Below are positions 5,592 through 62,321 of a stretch of 64,000 nucleotides of DNA, one piece after another. The position numbers and the translations under genes are program-made. A model generated the notes under the pieces. It saw only the letters and a program-made list of their open reading frames with translations, searched no databases and was not told the DNA's origin. Each line of letters begins with the position of its first letter. Within the stretch, counting starts at the first letter, position 1. Source of the stretch: Candidatus Vecturithrix granuli (GTDB lineage Bacteria; Moduliflexota; Moduliflexia; Moduliflexales; Moduliflexaceae); assembly GCA_000739535.1 (NCBI GenBank), contig DF820468.1, positions 235,685 to 299,684 of the forward strand. The letters are read 5' to 3'.

Positions 5592-5914
5592 GATCGTATT
5601 TTGTAGTTATTGGCCAGGTTTATTCGCTGTAGGCGATACAGTATTGTAGCAGAACTGAGTCTCTCCCCGATCTGTTGTTCACCGTAGGCGATCTACAATA
5701 GTACAACCGCCACGCGGTAGGAGGATAATGGTGGTATCGCCCATTGCTACAATACTTAAAGCCCTACGAGCTAATTCATAGTTTTTTAATATTAAATTGC
5801 ACACTTCGACTTCGCTCAGTGTTCGGCGGTTATTAAATTGCACACTTCGACTTCGCTCAGTGTTCGGCGATTGTCGAGCGAAGTCGAGACATACATTTAT
5901 TTTTATAGTTATTC
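5592..5914. other. Intergenic region with nested inverted repeats and a tandem repeat
   Basis: 323 bp without a gene. About 5625-5755 has a nested inverted repeat: GATACAGTATTGTAGCA pairs loosely with GGTATCG and TGCTACAATACT. 5790-5890 holds the tandem repeat listed separately. No promoter or RNA gene recognised. Confidence 0.5.
5790..5890. repeat. Tandem copies of a TCGACTTCGCTCAG repeat
   Basis: Two identical 39-bp units (5790-5828 and 5831-5869, period 41) each containing CACACTTCGACTTCGCTCAG, followed by the inverted arm TTGTCGAGCGAAGTCGAGAC. It belongs to the same family as 4211-4263. Confidence 0.8.
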
Positions 5915-6715
5915 TTACAAAAACACTTCAGGTTCTTTTCTGGCCTGACAGGTGGTATGTAAGCGATTCACAATATTGAGCATGATCTCGTTTTGTACAG
6001 AGCGTGCCTGCGCCGGACAAATTTTGATACAGGCGCAGCAGTGAGTGCAGATATTTTCATCCGATGTCGCCGGATTTTCCGTGGCAATGGCGTTGACAGG
6101 GCAGATGTGTGCACACTTTCCGCACAGGGTACAGAGCGAAATATTTGTTACCGGAGCCATGGGAGGAAGTGTTCCAGGATCGCGATAGGGAAAATTACCC
6201 GGCACTGTCAGAGGCTTAATGGCAGCAATCGTTTCAATCTGTTGAAGTTTCTCCCGGATTTTCGCGCCAAAGGCTCTGGCGTGATGGCGATCTTGCGTAT
6301 CCGGTCTGCCGTGTGCAATAGGTTTCTGTTCCGAAGAATAGGAATGTTCGCCGATAAAAGCCCCGCCAGCAATCGGCATAAACCCGGATTGTACGGCAAG
6401 ATCGCGTAATTCCCGCAGGGCATCTTCGTATGCCCGGTTACCATAGACCGCCACGAGTACTGCCAGCGTATTGCGCGCCCTGAACGTGGCAAAATGTTCT
6501 GCTGCGACCTTTGCAATCCTGCCAACATACACCGGCGCGGCTAAAATTACCAATTCATCCTGAAACACAGGCATCGGCGCTGTTCTGCTGCCTGGCAGCG
6601 TACAATCAAGATGCTGAACCTGCTCTGCTTTTATGCCTTTGGTGATTTCTTTGACAATGGCTCTGGTTGTCGCGGTTGGCGAAAAATAGACGAGTTTGAC
6701 AGTCTGTACTTTCAT
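5915..6715 (-). CDS. EFR1-like flavodoxin/ferredoxin fusion protein
   Basis: 266 residues from the ATG at 6715, taken because an upstream in-frame start would overlap the preceding gene. The N-terminal half is flavodoxin-like, with the FMN phosphate loop YFSPTATTR near residue 10. The C-terminal half has two [4Fe-4S] motifs of the CxxCxxCxxxCP type, CTLCGKCAHICP and CTHCCACIKICP, followed by PAQARS. Such proteins are cytosolic electron carriers of anaerobes with no fixed partner. The gene follows the acetyltransferase gene by 13 bp, so the two are probably co-transcribed. Assignment to family is solid; the redox partner is unknown. Confidence 0.9.
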   Translation of the reverse strand: MKVQTVKLVYFSPTATTRAIVKEITKGIKAEQVQHLDCTLPGSRTAPMPVFQDELVILAAPVYVGRIAKVAAEHFATFRARNTLAVLVAVYGNRAYEDALRELRDLAVQSGFMPIAGGAFIGEHSYSSEQKPIAHGRPDTQDRHHARAFGAKIREKLQQIETIAAIKPLTVPGNFPYRDPGTLPPMAPVTNISLCTLCGKCAHICPVNAIATENPATSDENICTHCCACIKICPAQARSVQNEIMLNIVNRLHTTCQARKEPEVFL

Positions 6716-6728
6716 ATTTTTGATCAAC

Positions 6729-7514
6729 TTAGAATGTAAATTCAAGCATACGATACCTGGCGATAAACCCGGTTTTTTCCAGGCAACGCCGTGAGGCGAT
6801 GTTCTCAATCGCGCAGCCGCAGATCGGACGCCAGCCCTGCTGCTGACAATAATCGGCCAGATAGTGAATAATTGCGGCGCCATAGCCTTGCCGGCGGTAT
6901 TTGGACGTCACCAACATGCCAATATCGAATTCCGGTCGTCCGACAATGACGCGCTGAAAGAGACCAACCCCAATCAGATCGTGATCCTGTTCAAAGATGA
7001 ACAGATTATGATTCGCAATGACCTCGTCGATTTCTTCCTTATTATCAAAAACCTCTTCATTCACTGCCGCAATCTGCTGGGCATCATGCGGCTCGGCAAA
7101 GCGGGTTGTGACATGCTCTCCCAATAACGACAAACTTCGCAGATCGCGTTCTCGAAACAGGACACCGACAGCTTTTGTCTGTTTCTGGGCCTGGACGCAG
7201 CACGATAATAACGCATGATCAAAGGATTTACAAAAGGCTTTTTTGATTGAGAATTTTTGAATGAGATCCTGAAAAATCCTATCGATCTGATGAAAATGCG
7301 TGCGACTGATAAAATACTCCAGTAAAAGATTATCGTCGCCCAGGAGCACATATCCTATCGGTCTAGCATAGGATTGGATTTTCACCACTCGCGCCCGGCG
7401 AATTTTTAATTCGAGAAACAATTCCTGCGCTTCTCCTAATTCGTCAAGATAGTGCGCGCGCATCCCCTCAATCTCTTTCAGCGAGTTGGCAAACATAAAC
7501 TCATAGTTATCCAT
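6729..7514 (-). CDS. GNAT family N-acetyltransferase
   Basis: 261 residues from the ATG at 7514; a TTG at 7541 would add nine residues and cannot be excluded. The C-terminal half is a GNAT domain with the acetyl-CoA pyrophosphate loop RRQGYGAAIIHYLADY and the later strand PICGCAIENIASRRCLEKTGF. The N-terminal half, about 130 residues, is probably a degenerate second GNAT or a substrate domain. The acceptor is unknown; tandem GNAT proteins act on small amines or protein N-termini. Probably the first gene of a two-gene operon with the flavodoxin-ferredoxin downstream. Confidence 0.85.
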   Translation of the reverse strand: MDNYEFMFANSLKEIEGMRAHYLDELGEAQELFLELKIRRARVVKIQSYARPIGYVLLGDDNLLLEYFISRTHFHQIDRIFQDLIQKFSIKKAFCKSFDHALLSCCVQAQKQTKAVGVLFRERDLRSLSLLGEHVTTRFAEPHDAQQIAAVNEEVFDNKEEIDEVIANHNLFIFEQDHDLIGVGLFQRVIVGRPEFDIGMLVTSKYRRQGYGAAIIHYLADYCQQQGWRPICGCAIENIASRRCLEKTGFIARYRMLEFTF

Positions 7515-7744
7515 TGGTCTCTTTCGTCCCTCTTCGATCAATGAAAATTTTATCCCTTACCCAACGCTGATCATGTCATGTACTGGATGCGCGTAAAAAA
7601 GACAAAGAAAAAATGAGACTGAAAAGAAAAATGGCTCTTGCGTGAAGTAATCGAAGTTGTTAAGAGTGTTCGCCACCAGGATAAGATAATTAAGCGAAAG
7701 CCCAGGCGAGAATTACAACATCTCTCGCCTGAATTTCTACGATT

Positions 7745-8248
7745 TTAAAGCTCATACAAGGTTTCGTCAACATTCGGTCGCGGTCGCTGGCCTGCTCCTT
7801 TTACACCTTTTTTGCCTTCCATCACAAAGGGATCTTCGCCTTCCAGTAAGTCGCCCATCTCTGCTTCAACTTTATCAGGGTCTTCGCCGCGTTCCATACG
7901 GCTAAGGGCTTCTTCCATTGCAGATCCCATTTTCAGGCCGGTGGCGTCCGAAAGCTTACGCATTAACTGGGCGGCCTGGCGCGGATCGTCCTCATTGATA
8001 TGTTCTGCTTCGCGGGCTAACATGCCCATCGCTTTTTCCATTTTGGCTTCATCAATCGGCGGCATGTCGGCCTCCATCTCGCCGCTGCTGTCGCCACGGT
8101 TGGAGATTGCGGCAAAGAGCGAGACTTTGCGTTGAAGTTTGACATCTTGACACTTCGGACAATCCGGAATTTTTTCCGTGTTGATTCGCCGCGAAAAGAA
8201 ATTATAGATCGTATTACATTGTTCACAATAAAATTCGTAAATTGGCAT
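7745..8248 (-). CDS. FmdB-type zinc ribbon protein
   Basis: 167 residues. It begins MPIYEFYCEQCN and has a second cysteine pair CPKC at about 36-39, the FmdB zinc ribbon. The rest is acidic and charged, with helices around residues 70-140 that I do not recognise, and ends GQRPRPNVDETLYEL. Most FmdB proteins are about 70-110 residues; the long tail is typical of versions in delta-proteobacteria-like anaerobes. FmdB was named as a regulator of formamidase, but its role is mostly unproven. The purine-rich GAGGAGGAGAAGG precedes the ATG. It lies 18 bp after the DUF5662 gene, so it is probably in an operon with it. Confidence 0.85.
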   Translation of the reverse strand: MPIYEFYCEQCNTIYNFFSRRINTEKIPDCPKCQDVKLQRKVSLFAAISNRGDSSGEMEADMPPIDEAKMEKAMGMLAREAEHINEDDPRQAAQLMRKLSDATGLKMGSAMEEALSRMERGEDPDKVEAEMGDLLEGEDPFVMEGKKGVKGAGQRPRPNVDETLYEL

Positions 8249-56629: not shown

Positions 56630-56899
56630 ATGAAACATTATAATTGGAACACAGACAAAAATGAGCAACTGATAAAAGAACGGGGCGTTTCGTTCGAACA
56701 TGTGGTGATTCTTCTCAAAGAAGGGCATATTCTGGACGTAATTATTCATCCTAATCAGGAACGCTATCCGGGGCAGCGCATGTTTATTTTGGAAATCAAT
56801 AACTATTGCTATCTCGTGCCTTATGTGGAAAACGACGACGAAGTCTTTTTAAAAACAATCATTCCAAGCCGGAAGGCGACAAAGAAATATTTAGGGTAA
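56630..56899 (+). CDS. BrnT-like toxin
   Basis: 89 residues. Starts KHYNWNTDKNEQLIKERGVSFEHV, the FxWDxxKxxxNxxKHGVSFEEA-type opening of BrnT RNase toxins, with VILLKEGHILDV, then strand/turn stretches and a last helix IIPSRKATKKYLG. It probably cleaves RNA, kept in check by the antitoxin whose gene follows four bases later. BrnT toxins normally precede the antitoxin, as here. Identification is by family shape; the DUF4258 family is an alternative. Confidence 0.75.
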   Translation: MKHYNWNTDKNEQLIKERGVSFEHVVILLKEGHILDVIIHPNQERYPGQRMFILEINNYCYLVPYVENDDEVFLKTIIPSRKATKKYLG

Positions 56900-56903
56900 T
56901 GTC

Positions 56904-57185
56904 ATGAAACATCCACCACTTAACCAGGAAGAACAGGATTGGCTTGATTCTTATGAACGTGATGAATGGGTTTCGATAAACAACGCCGAGACGCGAAAAA
57001 AATATCAAGCGATCGCTCAGTCAACGTTACATGCAGAACGGCAGGTCAAGATTAGTCTCTCGGAACGGGATTGGACGTTAATTCAGGAAAAAGCCATGAG
57101 GGAAGGGCTGTCGTATCAAGCCTTTATGAGAAGCGTGTTACATAAATACATCACTGGCAGATTGACAGAACATCCTGGCACGTAA
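56904..57185 (+). CDS. BrnA/CopG-like antitoxin
   Basis: 93 residues. The C-terminal half has a ribbon-helix-helix DNA-binding look (VKISLSERDWTLIQEKAMRE, then GLSYQAFMRSVLHKYI); the charged N-terminus (LNQEEQDWLDSYERDEWVSI) would wrap the toxin. Paired with the toxin gene by a 4-bp gap. It probably autorepresses the promoter upstream of 56630. Confidence 0.75.
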   Translation: MKHPPLNQEEQDWLDSYERDEWVSINNAETRKKYQAIAQSTLHAERQVKISLSERDWTLIQEKAMREGLSYQAFMRSVLHKYITGRLTEHPGT

Positions 57186-57402: not shown

Positions 57403-58404
57403 ATGCACATTCATGGAGAGTCTCAAGCGCAGGCCGGGGGCCAGCTTTTTGATCACGGTTACGCTTTGTTGATCGGGGTCGGAACAACCGCTGATCCGCG
57501 CTGGTCTCTGCCGGTCACGGTCAACGATGTTCAGGCCATTCACAAGATTCTCACGGACGCCGCCCTGTGCGCCTATCCGCACAACAGGGATCATATCCGG
57601 CTGTTGTGCAATGCTGCGGCGACCCGGCCGGGCATCCTGGATGGACTCGCCTGGCTCAAGCGACAGGCCGCGGCTGACCCGGACGCCACGGTCGTGGTGT
57701 ATTATTCCGGGCATGGCTGGTTAGATGCGCACGCGCTGCAATATGCGTTGATTCCGCATGAGTTTGATGCGACTGACATTCCGGGCTCAGCCCTGTTAGC
57801 TAACGATTTTGCCGCAGCCTTGCGCGAGATTGAGGCCCGGCGTTTAGTCGTGTTTGTGGATAGCTGTCACGCCGAGGGGATGGCCGCGGCCAAAGGGGAA
57901 CCGGGACTCCCAGCGGATTTTGTGCAGGCCGTGCTGCCCAAAGGCGTGATCGATTGTCTCAAACAGGGCGAAGGACGCGCGGTCTTTACATCGTCGCGAG
58001 GCAGGCAATCGTCCTATATCCGTCCGGATCAGAGCATGAGCATTTACACCTATCACCTGCTCGCAGCCTTGCAAGGGGCCGGCAGCAGTCCGGGCGATAC
58101 GGTGGTGCGCGTCTCCAATCTGATGAACCATTTAGGGAAGACCGTGCCGGCGAGCGCTCGGCAATGCTGGCAGGTTGAGCAAGTCCCCTTTTTTGACGCG
58201 GCCACTGAGGATTTCCCGGTCGCCCTGCTGCGCGGCGGCAAAGGCTTGCCGGCCGAGGACCGGGATGACGCCGCGCAAGCAACGGCAGAGTCACCGCCAA
58301 CGCCGCAAAAAACAGGCGAGAGGATCCGCATTCATCAGGAAGCAGGCGATAATGCCGTGCAGATTGGTCTGGTGCATGGTGATGCCAACATCAGGAAGAC
58401 ATAG
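57403..58404 (+). CDS. Caspase-like (C14) peptidase with C-terminal RHIM-like motif
   Basis: 333 residues, with AAGGAGGAAGGG ahead of the ATG. The catalytic dyad is His104 in VVYYSGHG and Cys155 in VVFVDSCHA; the opening HGYALLIGVG and HDIRLLCN-like NRDHIRLLCN are typical of bacterial caspase homologues. Residues 290-305 are a flexible linker. The last 20 residues contain AGDNAVQIGLVHGDANI (314-330), whose QIG core and glycine spacing resemble RHIM/PP-type amyloid motifs. The NB-ARC protein downstream carries the same pattern at its N-terminus. It is probably the death-executing protease of a two-protein module. Substrate unknown; basic (Arg/Lys) specificity, usual for such homologues, is possible. 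Confidence 0.88.
   Translation: MHIHGESQAQAGGQLFDHGYALLIGVGTTADPRWSLPVTVNDVQAIHKILTDAALCAYPHNRDHIRLLCNAAATRPGILDGLAWLKRQAAADPDATVVVYYSGHGWLDAHALQYALIPHEFDATDIPGSALLANDFAAALREIEARRLVVFVDSCHAEGMAAAKGEPGLPADFVQAVLPKGVIDCLKQGEGRAVFTSSRGRQSSYIRPDQSMSIYTYHLLAALQGAGSSPGDTVVRVSNLMNHLGKTVPASARQCWQVEQVPFFDAATEDFPVALLRGGKGLPAEDRDDAAQATAESPPTPQKTGERIRIHQEAGDNAVQIGLVHGDANIRKT
58342..58392 (+). other. RHIM/PP-like amyloid motif, caspase C-terminus
   Basis: Codons 314-330: AGDNAVQIGLVHGDANI. A, G, D, Q, I, G, G and I all recur at the same spacing in the NLR motif at 58812. Confidence 0.65.
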
Positions 58405-58787
58405 CGATTGTATTCGAGATAGGCATGTTTCACCACAGAATCACAACAACGAATTTTGGAAAAGAACGAATTGACAGAGTATCCCGAACGATTTCGTTCC
58501 TTTCTTCAATTCGTTGTAGTATTTATTATAAAAATCTGTGAACTCTGTGAAATCTGTGGTGAAAATAATGCGTCGAAAATTCTTTGTACATTCAACCCTT
58601 GTCGCGCATGATTTCGGAAATAATGAGACATCACGTCCGTAGGCAGACAACAGCGGATGAAAGGAATCTTCGGATGGGAGGCGGAACATTTGCAACAGGA
58701 CAACAGCGGATGAAAGGAATCTTCGGATGGAAGACGAAGAAACCGAAACAATCCGAAGATTCCTCCCATCCGCTGTTGTAACGTAAT
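58405..58787. other. Intergenic region between caspase and NLR genes
   Basis: 383 bp. About 58435-58560 carries imperfect inverted copies around GAATTTTGGAAAAGAACGAA and TTCTTCAATTCG; 58646-58779 holds the doubled GACAACAGCGGAT element. No gene. A shared transcript would have to cross these hairpins. Confidence 0.5.
58646..58779. repeat. GACAACAGCGGAT element, right copies
   Basis: Two direct units with GACAACAGCGGATGAAAGGA at 58646 and 58699 and an inverted ATCCGAAGATTCCTCCCATC...GCTGTTGT arm ending at 58779. The same element, single copy, lies at 56150-56227. Confidence 0.8.
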
Positions 58788-61700
58788 ATGTCCGATCAGA
58801 TCAAACAAAAAGCCGGAGATTACAGCACCCAAATTGGCGTAGCCTACGGGCCTGTTCACATTTATCAATCAGGTCGTCCGCCGACCTATTTTGCGCCGTT
58901 TCCAGCGCAGTCGCTGCCGCCGCACTTTGTGCCGCGGCCGGAAGTGACCGATGACCTCAAAGCGCGGCTGATGAACGAACAGCCGGCAGCGCCCGGTATC
59001 CTGGTGATCAGCGCGCTGCATGGACTGGGCGGCATCGGCAAATCCACATTGGCGGCGGCGCTGGTGTATGATGAAGCGGTGCAAAAGCGCTTCCCGGACG
59101 GCATTCTCTGGGCCATCTTAGGCCAACAGCCGGAAATCCTTTCAATCATAAGCGGCTGGATTCACGCTATGGGCGATTGTAATTTCCGGCCGACAACCGT
59201 CGAAACCGCTTCGAACCATTTGCGAACCCTGTTGCACGACAAAGCCGTGTTACTGGTGGTAGATGACGTCTGGCAGTCGGATCATGCCGTCCATTTCAAA
59301 GCCAGCGGCCCGTGTTGCCACGTGCTGATGACCACGCGCGACGCCCTGGTGGCCAAAGCGGTTGGCGCGGAATTGTACCGCCTGGATGTGATGACTGCGG
59401 CGCAGGCCCTGACTCTGCTTTCCGCCCGTTTAGGCCGCGCGCTCCACGGCGAGGATCTGGCGCAGGCCCAGGCTCTGGCGCGCGACGTGGGCTATTTGCC
59501 TCTGGCGCTGGAACTCCTGGCGGCTCAGGTCGCGGAGGGCATCCCCTGGACCGAACTACGCGCAGAGTTCCAGGCCGAAATCGTGCGGCTGGAAGTCCTG
59601 GAAACGCCGGGGGTGGATGAAATCAGTGCGGAAGGACTGACAAAGCGGCTCAGTTTACGCGCCTCATTTGCGCTCAGTTTGCGGCGCCTGTCGCCGGAGC
59701 ACCTGGCGCGCTTCGCCTGGTTGGGGATTCTGCCTGAAGACGTGAGCATCAGCGCGGCAATGGCCGCAACCTTATGGGACACCGATGTGTGCGGCGCGCG
59801 CGACGCTCTCCGCTACTTATGCGACAAGGCGCTCCTGTCGCCCGGCCCTGCACTCCCGGAGCAGCCGCCCATCTATCGCCTGCACGACCTGCTGCACGAC
59901 AGCGCGCGCGCCTTAGTCCCTGCGCCGCCCACCCCGCCTTCGCCCGCGGAATTGCCCGGTTTAGGCCTGGCATTGCCAGCCGCCCACGCTGCGTTCCTGG
60001 CACGCTATCACGAGAAAACGCGGAAACATAACCGCCTGATTTTTAAGGGATTTAAGGATCGAAAAATTGCGTTTCAGTCCCAATTGAGCCTTTTTCAAAA
60101 AACACTTTCCAGCTATCAGGGGATTTTCAGAAAATGTTTCCGTGTTTTCTCTCACAAACAGCTTCAGGATGGTCTCTGGCACACTCTGTCTGACGATGGC
60201 TATATTCACGCCCACCTCACCTGGCATTTGCACAAGGCCGGTCAGGTCGCACAGCTTCACGCCCTGCTGCGCGAGGAAACCGCCGCAGGCCGCCATGGCT
60301 GGCATCAGGCGCGTGAACGGTTGGGGCAAACCGCCGGCTTTTTGGAAGACGTGAGGCTGGCCAGGACAATAGCCGAACAGGAGCGGCAGATCGGGCTGCA
60401 ATGCCGCTATGCCCTGATCCTCGCCTCCTTCAACAGTCTGGCAAAAAACATCCCCCGCCCGCTCTTATGCGCCCTGGTCCGGCATGGCCTCTGGTCTCCG
60501 GCCCAGGGCCTGGCCTATGCCCGTCAGGTTCCTGGCGCAGAAGCGCGAACAGACGCCTTCCTCGAACTGCTCCCCGAACTGCCGCAGCTGCTCCGCGACA
60601 TGGCATTACGAGACGCGCTCAACGCGGTGCAGGTGATTCAGTCCGGTTATTATCAGGCAGAGGCCCTGGCCGCGCTGGCACATCACCTGCCGACGGCGTT
60701 GCTAAATGAGGCGTTGAGCACGGCGCAGAAGATCGAGCGTGAGATGTTTCGGGCAAGTGCCCTGACCGCCCTGGTGCCGCACCTGCTTGAGGAACAACGC
60801 GCGGCCGTGCTGCGGGAGGCGTTACGCGCGGCACAGGCTATCCAGTCTGAGTATTTTCGGGCAAAGGCCCTGGTCGCGCTGGCCCCGCACCTGCTTGAGG
60901 AACAACGCACGGCAGTGTTACAAGCGGCGTTGAGCGTGTCGCAGGCGATCCAGGATGAGAAGTATCGGGCAGAGGCCTTGACCGCGTTGGCCCCGCACCT
61001 GCCGGAAGAGCAGCGCACTACGGTGCTACGAGAAGCGTTGAGCGTGTCGCAGGCGATCCAGGATGAGAAGGATCGGGCAGAGGCCTTGACCGCGTTGGCC
61101 CCGCACCTGCCGGAGGCGCTGCTGCGGGAGGCGTTGAGCGCGGCACAGACGATTGAGTCTGAGTGGCAACGAGCAGAGGTCCTGGCCGCGCTGGCACCGC
61201 ATTTGCCGGAGGCGTTGCTGGAGGAAGCGCTGCTCGCGGCGCAAGCGATTGAGTCTGAGTGGCAACGGGCAGAGGTCCTGGCCGTGCTAGTGGTACCGCA
61301 CCTCCCCAAGGCGATGCTGCCGGAGCCGTTGAGCGCGGCGCAGGTGATCGAGTCTGAAGGGGGGCGACCAAAGGCTTTGAGCGAGCTGGCGCCGCACCTG
61401 CCGGAGACGCTCTTGTGGGCGGCTCGGATCGCGGCGCTGAAGATTCGGATCGCGGCGCTGAAGATTAATTATGAGTATCGTCGGACAGACACTCTGGCCG
61501 CGCTGGAGCCGCACCTGCCGGAGGCTCAACGGACGGCGGTGCTGCGGGAGGCGTTGAGCGCGGCGCAGGCGATAGAGTCTGAGTATGATCGGGCAAAGGT
61601 CGTGACCGCGCTGGCACCGCACCTGCCGGCGGCGCTGTTGCTAGAGGCGTTGCGCGCGGCGCAGGCGATCCGGGATAAGGACGATCGGGCAAAGGTCCTG

Positions 61701-62321
61701 GCCGCGCTGGCGCCGCGTCTGCCGGAGGCGCTGCTGCCGGAGGCGTTGAGCGTGGCGCAGGCGATCCAAGATGAGTGGCGGCGGGTACAGGCCCTGACCG
61801 CGCTAGCGTCGCGCCTGCCGACAGCGCTGCTGCCCGATGCGTTGAGCGTGGCGCAGGCGATCCAAGATGAGTGGCAGCGGGTACAGGCCCTGACCGCGCT
61901 AGCGTCGCGCCTGCCGACAGCGCTGCTGCCCGATGAACAGCGCGCGGCGGCGCTGCGGGAGGCGTTGAGCGTGGCGCAGGCGATCCAGGATGAGAAGGAT
62001 CGGGCAAAGGCGTTGGCCGTGCTGGCACCGCACCTGTGCAAGGAGTTACTGTCGGAGGCGTTGACGCTGGCTCCGGCGATAGACTATGCGGATAATCGAG
62101 CACAGGCGTTGAAGTCCGTGGTCCCACGGTTGATAGAATATCCTGTCGAGGAGCTGCTCCGGCTGTGGCCCGGCGTGTTGGCGCGTCTGGCCCAACGCAG
62201 CCGGCAAGACCTGCTCTCTGACTTAGAGGCCTTGACGCCGGTAATCGCCATAATCGGCGGGGACGAGGCCATTGCGGAGCTTGCCCGCGCCATTCAGGGC
62301 GTGGGGCGCTGGTGGCCCTAA
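58788..62321 (+). CDS. NB-ARC STAND (NLR-like) protein with N-terminal RHIM-like motif and helical repeats
   Basis: 1177 residues. N-terminal motif AGDYSTQIGVAYGPVHI (9-25). NB-ARC: Walker A GLGGIGKST (79-87), Walker B VLLVVDDVW (154-162), MTTR sensor (181-184), GYLPLAL (235-241), winged helix and an MHD-like RLHD (364-367). A basic linker (405-455) and a helical arm with YIHAHLTWHLHKAGQ follow, then about 15 repeats of 32-36 residues (about 600-1135) of the form ALSxAQAIxDExxRAxALxALAPHLPEALL. Nucleotide exchange after ligand binding by the repeats should oligomerise the protein and expose the motif, seeding the caspase's matching motif. The gene is the last in the TA-caspase-NLR cluster. 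Confidence 0.92.
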   Translation: MSDQIKQKAGDYSTQIGVAYGPVHIYQSGRPPTYFAPFPAQSLPPHFVPRPEVTDDLKARLMNEQPAAPGILVISALHGLGGIGKSTLAAALVYDEAVQKRFPDGILWAILGQQPEILSIISGWIHAMGDCNFRPTTVETASNHLRTLLHDKAVLLVVDDVWQSDHAVHFKASGPCCHVLMTTRDALVAKAVGAELYRLDVMTAAQALTLLSARLGRALHGEDLAQAQALARDVGYLPLALELLAAQVAEGIPWTELRAEFQAEIVRLEVLETPGVDEISAEGLTKRLSLRASFALSLRRLSPEHLARFAWLGILPEDVSISAAMAATLWDTDVCGARDALRYLCDKALLSPGPALPEQPPIYRLHDLLHDSARALVPAPPTPPSPAELPGLGLALPAAHAAFLARYHEKTRKHNRLIFKGFKDRKIAFQSQLSLFQKTLSSYQGIFRKCFRVFSHKQLQDGLWHTLSDDGYIHAHLTWHLHKAGQVAQLHALLREETAAGRHGWHQARERLGQTAGFLEDVRLARTIAEQERQIGLQCRYALILASFNSLAKNIPRPLLCALVRHGLWSPAQGLAYARQVPGAEARTDAFLELLPELPQLLRDMALRDALNAVQVIQSGYYQAEALAALAHHLPTALLNEALSTAQKIEREMFRASALTALVPHLLEEQRAAVLREALRAAQAIQSEYFRAKALVALAPHLLEEQRTAVLQAALSVSQAIQDEKYRAEALTALAPHLPEEQRTTVLREALSVSQAIQDEKDRAEALTALAPHLPEALLREALSAAQTIESEWQRAEVLAALAPHLPEALLEEALLAAQAIESEWQRAEVLAVLVVPHLPKAMLPEPLSAAQVIESEGGRPKALSELAPHLPETLLWAARIAALKIRIAALKINYEYRRTDTLAALEPHLPEAQRTAVLREALSAAQAIESEYDRAKVVTALAPHLPAALLLEALRAAQAIRDKDDRAKVLAALAPRLPEALLPEALSVAQAIQDEWRRVQALTALASRLPTALLPDALSVAQAIQDEWQRVQALTALASRLPTALLPDEQRAAALREALSVAQAIQDEKDRAKALAVLAPHLCKELLSEALTLAPAIDYADNRAQALKSVVPRLIEYPVEELLRLWPGVLARLAQRSRQDLLSDLEALTPVIAIIGGDEAIAELARAIQGVGRWWP
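58812..58862 (+). other. RHIM/PP-like amyloid motif, NLR N-terminus
   Basis: Codons 9-25: AGDYSTQIGVAYGPVHI, aligned residue for residue with codons 314-330 of the caspase gene. Confidence 0.65.
60600..62193 (+). repeat. Region encoding about 15 helical repeats
   Basis: Each unit is near 96 bp, some lengthened by an EEQRTAVL-type insert. The two units at 61743-61838 and 61839-61934 differ by very few bases, indicating recent duplication. Confidence 0.85.
61743..61934 (+). repeat. Near-identical 96-bp tandem duplication in the NLR gene
   Basis: Both units start GCGTTGAGCGTGGCGCAGGC and encode the same LSVAQAIQDEW(R/Q)RVQALT stretch followed by ALASRLPTALLPD. Confidence 0.9.

Follow-up and report, generated by a model that had tools for sequence, protein, structure and literature searches.

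How might a caspase-like protease of a bacterium be linked to the receptor encoded beside it? In a stretch of 64,000 nucleotides from Candidatus Vecturithrix granuli (contig DF820468.1, positions 235,685 to 299,684; in the following, the window), a gene for a caspase-fold protease is followed by a gene for a protein of the NOD-like receptor (NLR) type. An earlier note on this DNA had pointed to a motif with a QIG core shared by the end of the caspase and the start of the NLR. It had labelled this motif RHIM/PP-like and had proposed that the activated NLR templates an amyloid that activates the caspase in an abortive suicide. Our comparisons support a specific pairing of the two termini and suggest that related caspases have exchanged their tails in step with their neighbours.

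In the caspase tail the sequence is ...IRIHQEAGDNAVQIGLVHGDANIRKT; the NLR opens with MSDQIKQKAGDYSTQIGVAYGPVHI. Both open reading frames (ORFs) and both motifs are present, and eight of the 17 motif residues (A, G, D, Q, I, G, G, I) are identical at the same spacing, in register and ungapped. The local alignment of the two termini comprises 22 columns with a BLOSUM62 score of 53, which none of 50,000 shuffles matched. Among the 3,192 C-terminus/N-terminus pairs of different ORFs of the window this alignment ranks third; both higher-ranked pairs are formed by antisense ORFs inside the NLR's own repeat array. When the caspase tail was compared with about 430 non-cognate N-termini of neighbour ORFs from other caspase loci, the window partner beat all of them. 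At the codon level the 8.38-Mb genome has three matches to the pattern G[DN]xxxQ[IVM]GxxxG. Two of these are the window motifs, situated 470 bp apart, and the third is unrelated and falls in an ORF of 135 aa that a longer ORF partly overlaps; the remaining matches of a relaxed pattern in the same genome are in short or unrelated ORFs. These sequence comparisons confirm the pair as a real and specific adaptor match between the NLR and the adjoining caspase. The same short motif stands at the N-terminus of the NLR and at the C-terminus of the next-door gene product, which, as the earlier note had held, fits the arrangement of bacterial amyloid signalling (BASS; PMC7889193).

With a Peptidase_C14 score of 58.3 bits (1.2e-15; curated Pfam cut-off 21.4), the predicted fold and an intact His/Cys dyad, the effector candidate is a Peptidase_C14 caspase with putative proteolytic activity. 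Its model aligns with plant metacaspase 4 (VIA-align Z 22.6) and with MALT1 and procaspase-6 (about 20), and Cys155, already named in the earlier note, is present together with His104. Against NCBIfam NF047832 (EACC1-associated caspase) the protein scored 85.1 bits, under the curated cut-off of 140. The AlphaFold confidence (predicted local distance difference test) is mostly >85 for residues 11-280 and <50 for residues 285-333, and the motif-bearing C-terminal tail from residue ~285 is predicted to be flexible or disordered. An AGGAGG ribosome-binding site lies directly 5' of the caspase start. The second protein qualifies as an NB-ARC NLR by its domain (82.9 bits, 2.9e-23; Pfam cut-off 23.5), its Walker A (GLGGIGKS at 79) and Walker B (LLVVDDVW at 155) motifs, GLPL-like (GYLPLAL at 235) and MHD-like (RLHDLLHD at 364) motifs, and its C-terminal repeats. 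It also has a TTRD motif at ~182 and a sub-threshold Pfam match to an APAF1-like winged-helix domain. The tandem repeats are the probable ligand-sensing region, and the N-terminus is fixed by an in-frame stop 9 nt 5' of the ATG.

Is the pairing of tail and neighbour a feature of this locus only? A single scan across about 85,000 species genomes yielded 80 caspase loci, and four more were used from plasmids. In the protease domain the closest orthologues have 48-65% identity, and they come mostly from filamentous cyanobacteria; the QIG motif is absent from all of these orthologues. Their tails often have a counterpart at the start of a protein encoded nearby (NLR, NACHT, TPR or sulfatase-like), with motif classes other than QIG: EAD10-type, 'SGDR', 'GKNIVG' and alpha-helical. 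At locus L135 the caspase ends with ISGDRNDVIFSQSGTINIK and the neighbour has ISGDNNRVVFSQDGSIHIE; the corresponding pairs are NQSGQTVENQTNIQGGVHLG and DQRGQNVENQTNIEGGVHIG at L093, QHGKFITNINEAHSIHIGD and QLGKYITNIEEGKDIHIGD at L134, and GKNIVGNIEG and GKNIVGEIQG at L073. In several orthologues the partner N-terminus is Pfam EAD10 (PF19954), an effector-associated adaptor (EAD; PMC7159879). At L061 (7989-9035, 9031-11529) an alpha-helical segment replaces the short motif on both the caspase and the neighbouring P-loop protein; judged from this case, adaptors of different fold class can replace one another.

So that matching cases were not favoured by selection, alignment scores were computed for every tail with the N-termini of the proteins encoded around it and with the ~430 non-cognate ones. 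At p<0.05 an own-neighbour match was obtained for 28 of 61 tails, compared with about three expected (Fisher p 4.8e-18, to be taken as an indication only, as the 61 tails share phylogeny). In a selected 12 x 12 matrix the best score fell to the cognate partner in 10 of 12 cases and the other two were won by partners of the same class; these partners had been picked for their match, and the 61-tail test is the fair one. The adaptor is thus duplicated in adjacent genes and its copies are mutually most similar, as in EAD coupling.

On the caspase-domain tree the tail class, labelled by eye, changes 17-19 times. L074 of the IHIGD class and L135 of the ISGDFSQ class are sisters (support 98), and in both the caspase tail aligns with the neighbour beside it; this alignment is strong for L135, whereas the rank test for L074, whose class is common to many loci, gave only p 0.17. 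L073 is nested within the IHIGD clade and has its own matched motif. On the receptor side, NLR-core relatives on plasmids (48-53%) have N-termini that differ from that of the window NLR, and therefore the NLR core is no predictor of the motif. As matched motifs were swapped on both partners, the motif appears to be a homotypic adaptor that couples the NLR to the caspase; the co-swapping bears on the pairing and is silent on the structure of the contact. The simplest reading of these sequences is that the tail is an exchangeable homotypic adaptor whose partners are kept matched by selection. The earlier note had regarded a motif missing from close orthologues as evidence against its proposal. 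For the exact QIG motif this is literally the case, but many orthologues carry another matched motif on both partners, which strengthens the argument for pairing. As far as the literature was searched, the tables of the original BASS paper (J Mol Biol 2020) aside, the exchange of matched C14 caspase tails together with the neighbouring partner appears to be new, as does a C14 caspase as the effector paired by a QIG motif. The role of the caspase as partnered effector, which the note had singled out, is less novel than supposed: amyloid pairs of an NLR and an effector encoded side by side have been reported, among them CHAT effectors of the caspase superfamily with BASS motifs (PMC7889193), and so have EAD-fused caspases (PMC7159879).

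Further arrangements were seen among the relatives. The partner is not an NLR at L134 (6965-8329), where EAD10 is joined to an FGE-sulfatase (C-type lectin-like sensor) domain, and at L133 (7020-8240), where an EAD10 protein has hydrophobic, possibly membrane-spanning stretches. At L055 (729-4007) and L059 (4698-9053) the caspase forms the C-terminal part of a fusion with a large P-loop protein and still has a short G/N-rich motif at its end. Related caspases also occur on plasmids, and on a contig of a viral collection (L190, IMG/VR; 5908-6918 and 6945-7958) the tail of a related caspase, SPVQPGIFVQPGWTVGNVI, has its match in the gene that follows, SDVESGRFTQPGWNVETVI; none of 5000 shuffles scored as high. 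The third gene on this contig starts like a P-loop ATPase.

The features of the window locus are compiled in the following table.

Features of the caspase-NLR locus (window coordinates)
Feature	Position	Strand	Basis or remark
Caspase-fold cysteine protease, 333 aa, likely effector	57403..58404	+	Pfam Peptidase_C14, AlphaFold, structure match
Catalytic His104 (YYSGHG)	57712..57714	+	invariant across 30-sequence alignment
Catalytic Cys155 (VDSCHA)	57865..57867	+	invariant across 30-sequence alignment
Effector-side adaptor motif AGDNAVQIGLVHGDANI, caspase residues 314-330 of 333	58342..58392	+	inside predicted disordered tail
Spacer between caspase and NLR, 383 bp, repeats	58405..58787	.	genes co-directional, non-overlapping
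NB-ARC NLR/STAND protein, 1177 aa, likely sensor-transducer	58788..62321	+	Pfam NB-ARC
Sensor-side adaptor motif AGDYSTQIGVAYGPVHI, NLR residues 9-25	58812..58862	+	
NB-ARC domain, NLR residues 55-249	58950..59534	+	Pfam
Alpha-solenoid-like tandem repeats, 32/36-residue units (96/108 bp)	60708..61930	+	

Within the spacer, positions 58443-58779 contain a 38-nt direct repeat (95%) and inverted repeats of 28-29 nt, resembling repetitive extragenic palindromic elements. Directly 5' of the caspase (56630-57185) are genes for a BrnT-like toxin (sub-cutoff) and a CopG/NikA-like antitoxin. The neighbouring genes identified by Pfam are metabolic (transketolase, sugar ABC transporters, Fe-S proteins), with no recognisable defence island. 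The genome is 93.8% complete with 10.75% contamination, and both genes are situated on one 457-kb contig. A second pair, matched by another motif, was found in the same genome (L180, G000 contig C20; 6516-6872 and 6935-9463): a 119-aa protein that contains VKQTGNQSTSVVGDQTQF and whose C-terminus is hydrophobic and possibly Bell-like, and directly 3' of it an NB-ARC/TPR NLR that opens with VEQQGAKSTSLVGDQTQI.

To which class does the QIG motif belong? The RHIM/PP core has been defined as G-phi-Q-phi-G (PMC7885112) and the fungal PP motif as NxGxQxGxN (PMC9815663). The window motifs, A-V-Q-I-G-L-V in the caspase and S-T-Q-I-G-V-A in the NLR, do not conform to these definitions. What stands of the RHIM/PP label is the hydrophobic-Q-hydrophobic-G core of the caspase, but the glycine at -2 is replaced by Ala or Ser and both flanking Asn are missing; position +4 is Val in the caspase and Ala in the NLR, where Thr moreover replaces the first hydrophobic residue. 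The comparison with BASS profiles that the earlier note had suggested was made for BASS3, with a profile of three sequences (the ORT49035.1 peptide, PMC8086366, and the plasmid matches H57 and H58). The caspase tail scored 4.2 bits (14 of 3000 decoys as high, p ~0.005) and the NLR N-terminus 0.2 bits (58 of 3000, p ~0.02), both weak values among 12 profile/decoy tests in all. BASS3 nevertheless gave the best relative score of the motif classes tried on the window motifs. Neither caspase nor NLR matched EAD10 (PF19954) at E<=1, and an EAD10 core profile did no better on them than on shuffles. Kinship of the QIG motif with EAD10, SGDR, ARDI, DQxGQ and the pair on contig C20 was tried with profiles, none of which was convincing.

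The exact QIG pair was seen in no other genome scanned, a set in which the host phylum is represented by only four genomes. In 291 genomes of the phylum of genome G050 (cyanobacteria, judged from the caspase tail) the QIG pattern gave scattered single matches, many of them one recurrent word, GDFTAQIGDPTG, and four inspected loci among the matches had no NLR/effector context. In tblastn searches against plasmids no match was obtained for either 29-aa motif or for an archaeal motif peptide. The latter, from AEB69175.1, bound Congo red (PMC8086366), and as the L093 motif resembles it, at least one such caspase-NLR pair has a motif similar to one with experimental amyloid support. On these sequences the window pair would work like a BASS pair, and the RHIM/PP/amyloid label is only partly supported; we describe the pair as RHIM/BASS3-flavoured and do not file it as a member.

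We considered four rival explanations. A chance likeness of two Gly-rich termini might be suspected, because the motif is short with only eight identities and the QIG pair is a singleton of one genome. The shuffles, the superiority over the 430 non-cognate N-termini, the rarity of the pattern (three matches in 8.4 Mb, two of them close together) and the pairing at the same positions in orthologues that carry different motifs make chance highly improbable, and it was rejected. The adjoining genes and the repeat-rich spacer could likewise suggest that local duplication or gene conversion copied DNA from one gene into the other without any function. However, six of the eight shared residues are encoded by different synonymous codons, the motif DNA is identical at only 27 of 51 positions and the similarity ends at the motif. 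The resemblance is therefore one at the protein level without recent DNA duplication, an explanation that we also rejected and to which we give hardly any weight.

More serious is the alternative that the motifs form an EAD-like homotypic adaptor whose beta interface is folded and not amyloid (strand addition or a small beta-solenoid filament), and through which the NLR would still recruit and activate the caspase. Several partners of the orthologues are EAD10, for which the EAD papers describe a mixed alpha+beta domain and make no mention of amyloid. The alpha-helical domain in the adaptor slot of L061 indicates that amyloid chemistry is not needed for the architecture, and the RHIM core is only partly present in the window. 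On the other hand, about 20 residues in a predicted disordered tail are short for a folded domain, and G/N/Q-rich beta motifs of this size that are paired with NLRs formed amyloid in reported cases (PMC8086366, PMC9815663); we regard the folded interface as a serious but less likely alternative. Further points weigh against the module proposed below: the exact QIG pair known from one genome, the missing -2 Gly and flanking Asn, the weak BASS3 similarity from a three-sequence profile, the 383 bp with repeats between the two genes, and the 33 of 61 caspases without a significant neighbour match, some of them motif-less or coiled-coil-tailed. The same coupling could finally serve another output, such as developmental or kin-recognition death or the limited proteolysis of a specific substrate (e.g. 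a zymogen). The metabolic neighbouring genes and the mostly filamentous cyanobacterial relatives are in line with this, whereas related caspases reside on plasmids and on one viral contig, and bacterial STAND/NLR proteins are established antiphage sensors according to work cited in PMC10907252. An output other than antiphage defence is a possibility to be taken seriously, if not the favoured one.

Taken together, the caspase and the NLR probably form a two-gene NLR-effector cell-death module with the matched motifs as its link, and we have good confidence, on sequence grounds, that the receptor would switch on the protease by homotypic motif binding. The C-terminal repeats of the NLR would sense a ligand and thereby open the NB-ARC domain, which would oligomerise and cluster the N-terminal motifs; these would recruit the caspase tails, and the caspase would be activated by induced proximity. 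With moderate confidence and by analogy with BASS, RHIM and PP, the homotypic contact may be a small beta-arch or amyloid template. A phage trigger and the abortive suicide of infected cells of a multicellular or filamentous host are speculative. Still tentative is the wider idea of an amyloid apoptosome, in which caspases of multicellular bacteria would routinely be activated by NLRs or other sensors via short exchangeable amyloid tails, with EAD10, SGDR-type, DQxGQ and QIG as one continuum and each class an insulated channel. The emblematic death protease, a caspase, would here be linked to a bacterial NLR by a matched short motif. By motif swaps the activation of bacterial orthocaspases, a long-standing question, becomes directly testable, and so does the question of whether signalling from NLR to caspase is older than the animals. 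The literature on BASS amyloid motifs and that on EAD adaptors may partly cover the same ground.

Among known systems the window pair shares with BASS (Dyrka et al. 2020), in particular the RHIM/PP-related BASS3, the adjacent-gene layout with one motif at the NLR N-terminus and one at the effector C-terminus, and with BASS3 also the phi-Q-phi-G-like core; BASS has been reported mainly in multicellular bacteria. It differs in that the effector is a Peptidase_C14 caspase and not Bell (CHAT and TIR effectors have been reported for BASS), in the absence of the -2 Gly and flanking Asn, in the weakness of the match to the three-sequence BASS3 profile, and in that amyloid is putative here. EAD-coupled STAND/effector systems (EAD10; Kaur et al. 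2020, 2021) likewise have the same adaptor in the sensor NTPase and the effector of adjacent genes, and cyanobacterial orthologues of the window caspase pair with EAD10 partners in this way. The window motif, however, is not recognised as EAD10, and the caspase side of the orthologues shows only a terminal beta motif and no whole EAD10. Animal RHIM and fungal PP have the hydrophobic-Q-hydrophobic-G core in common with the caspase motif, but the -2 Gly and Asn are missing, Thr takes the place of the first hydrophobic residue in the NLR, and there is no sign of common descent. With bacterial metacaspases and orthocaspases (PF00656) the window caspase shares the fold and the His/Cys dyad; unlike these proteases at large, its subfamily has a swappable C-terminal adaptor tail that matches the neighbouring gene.

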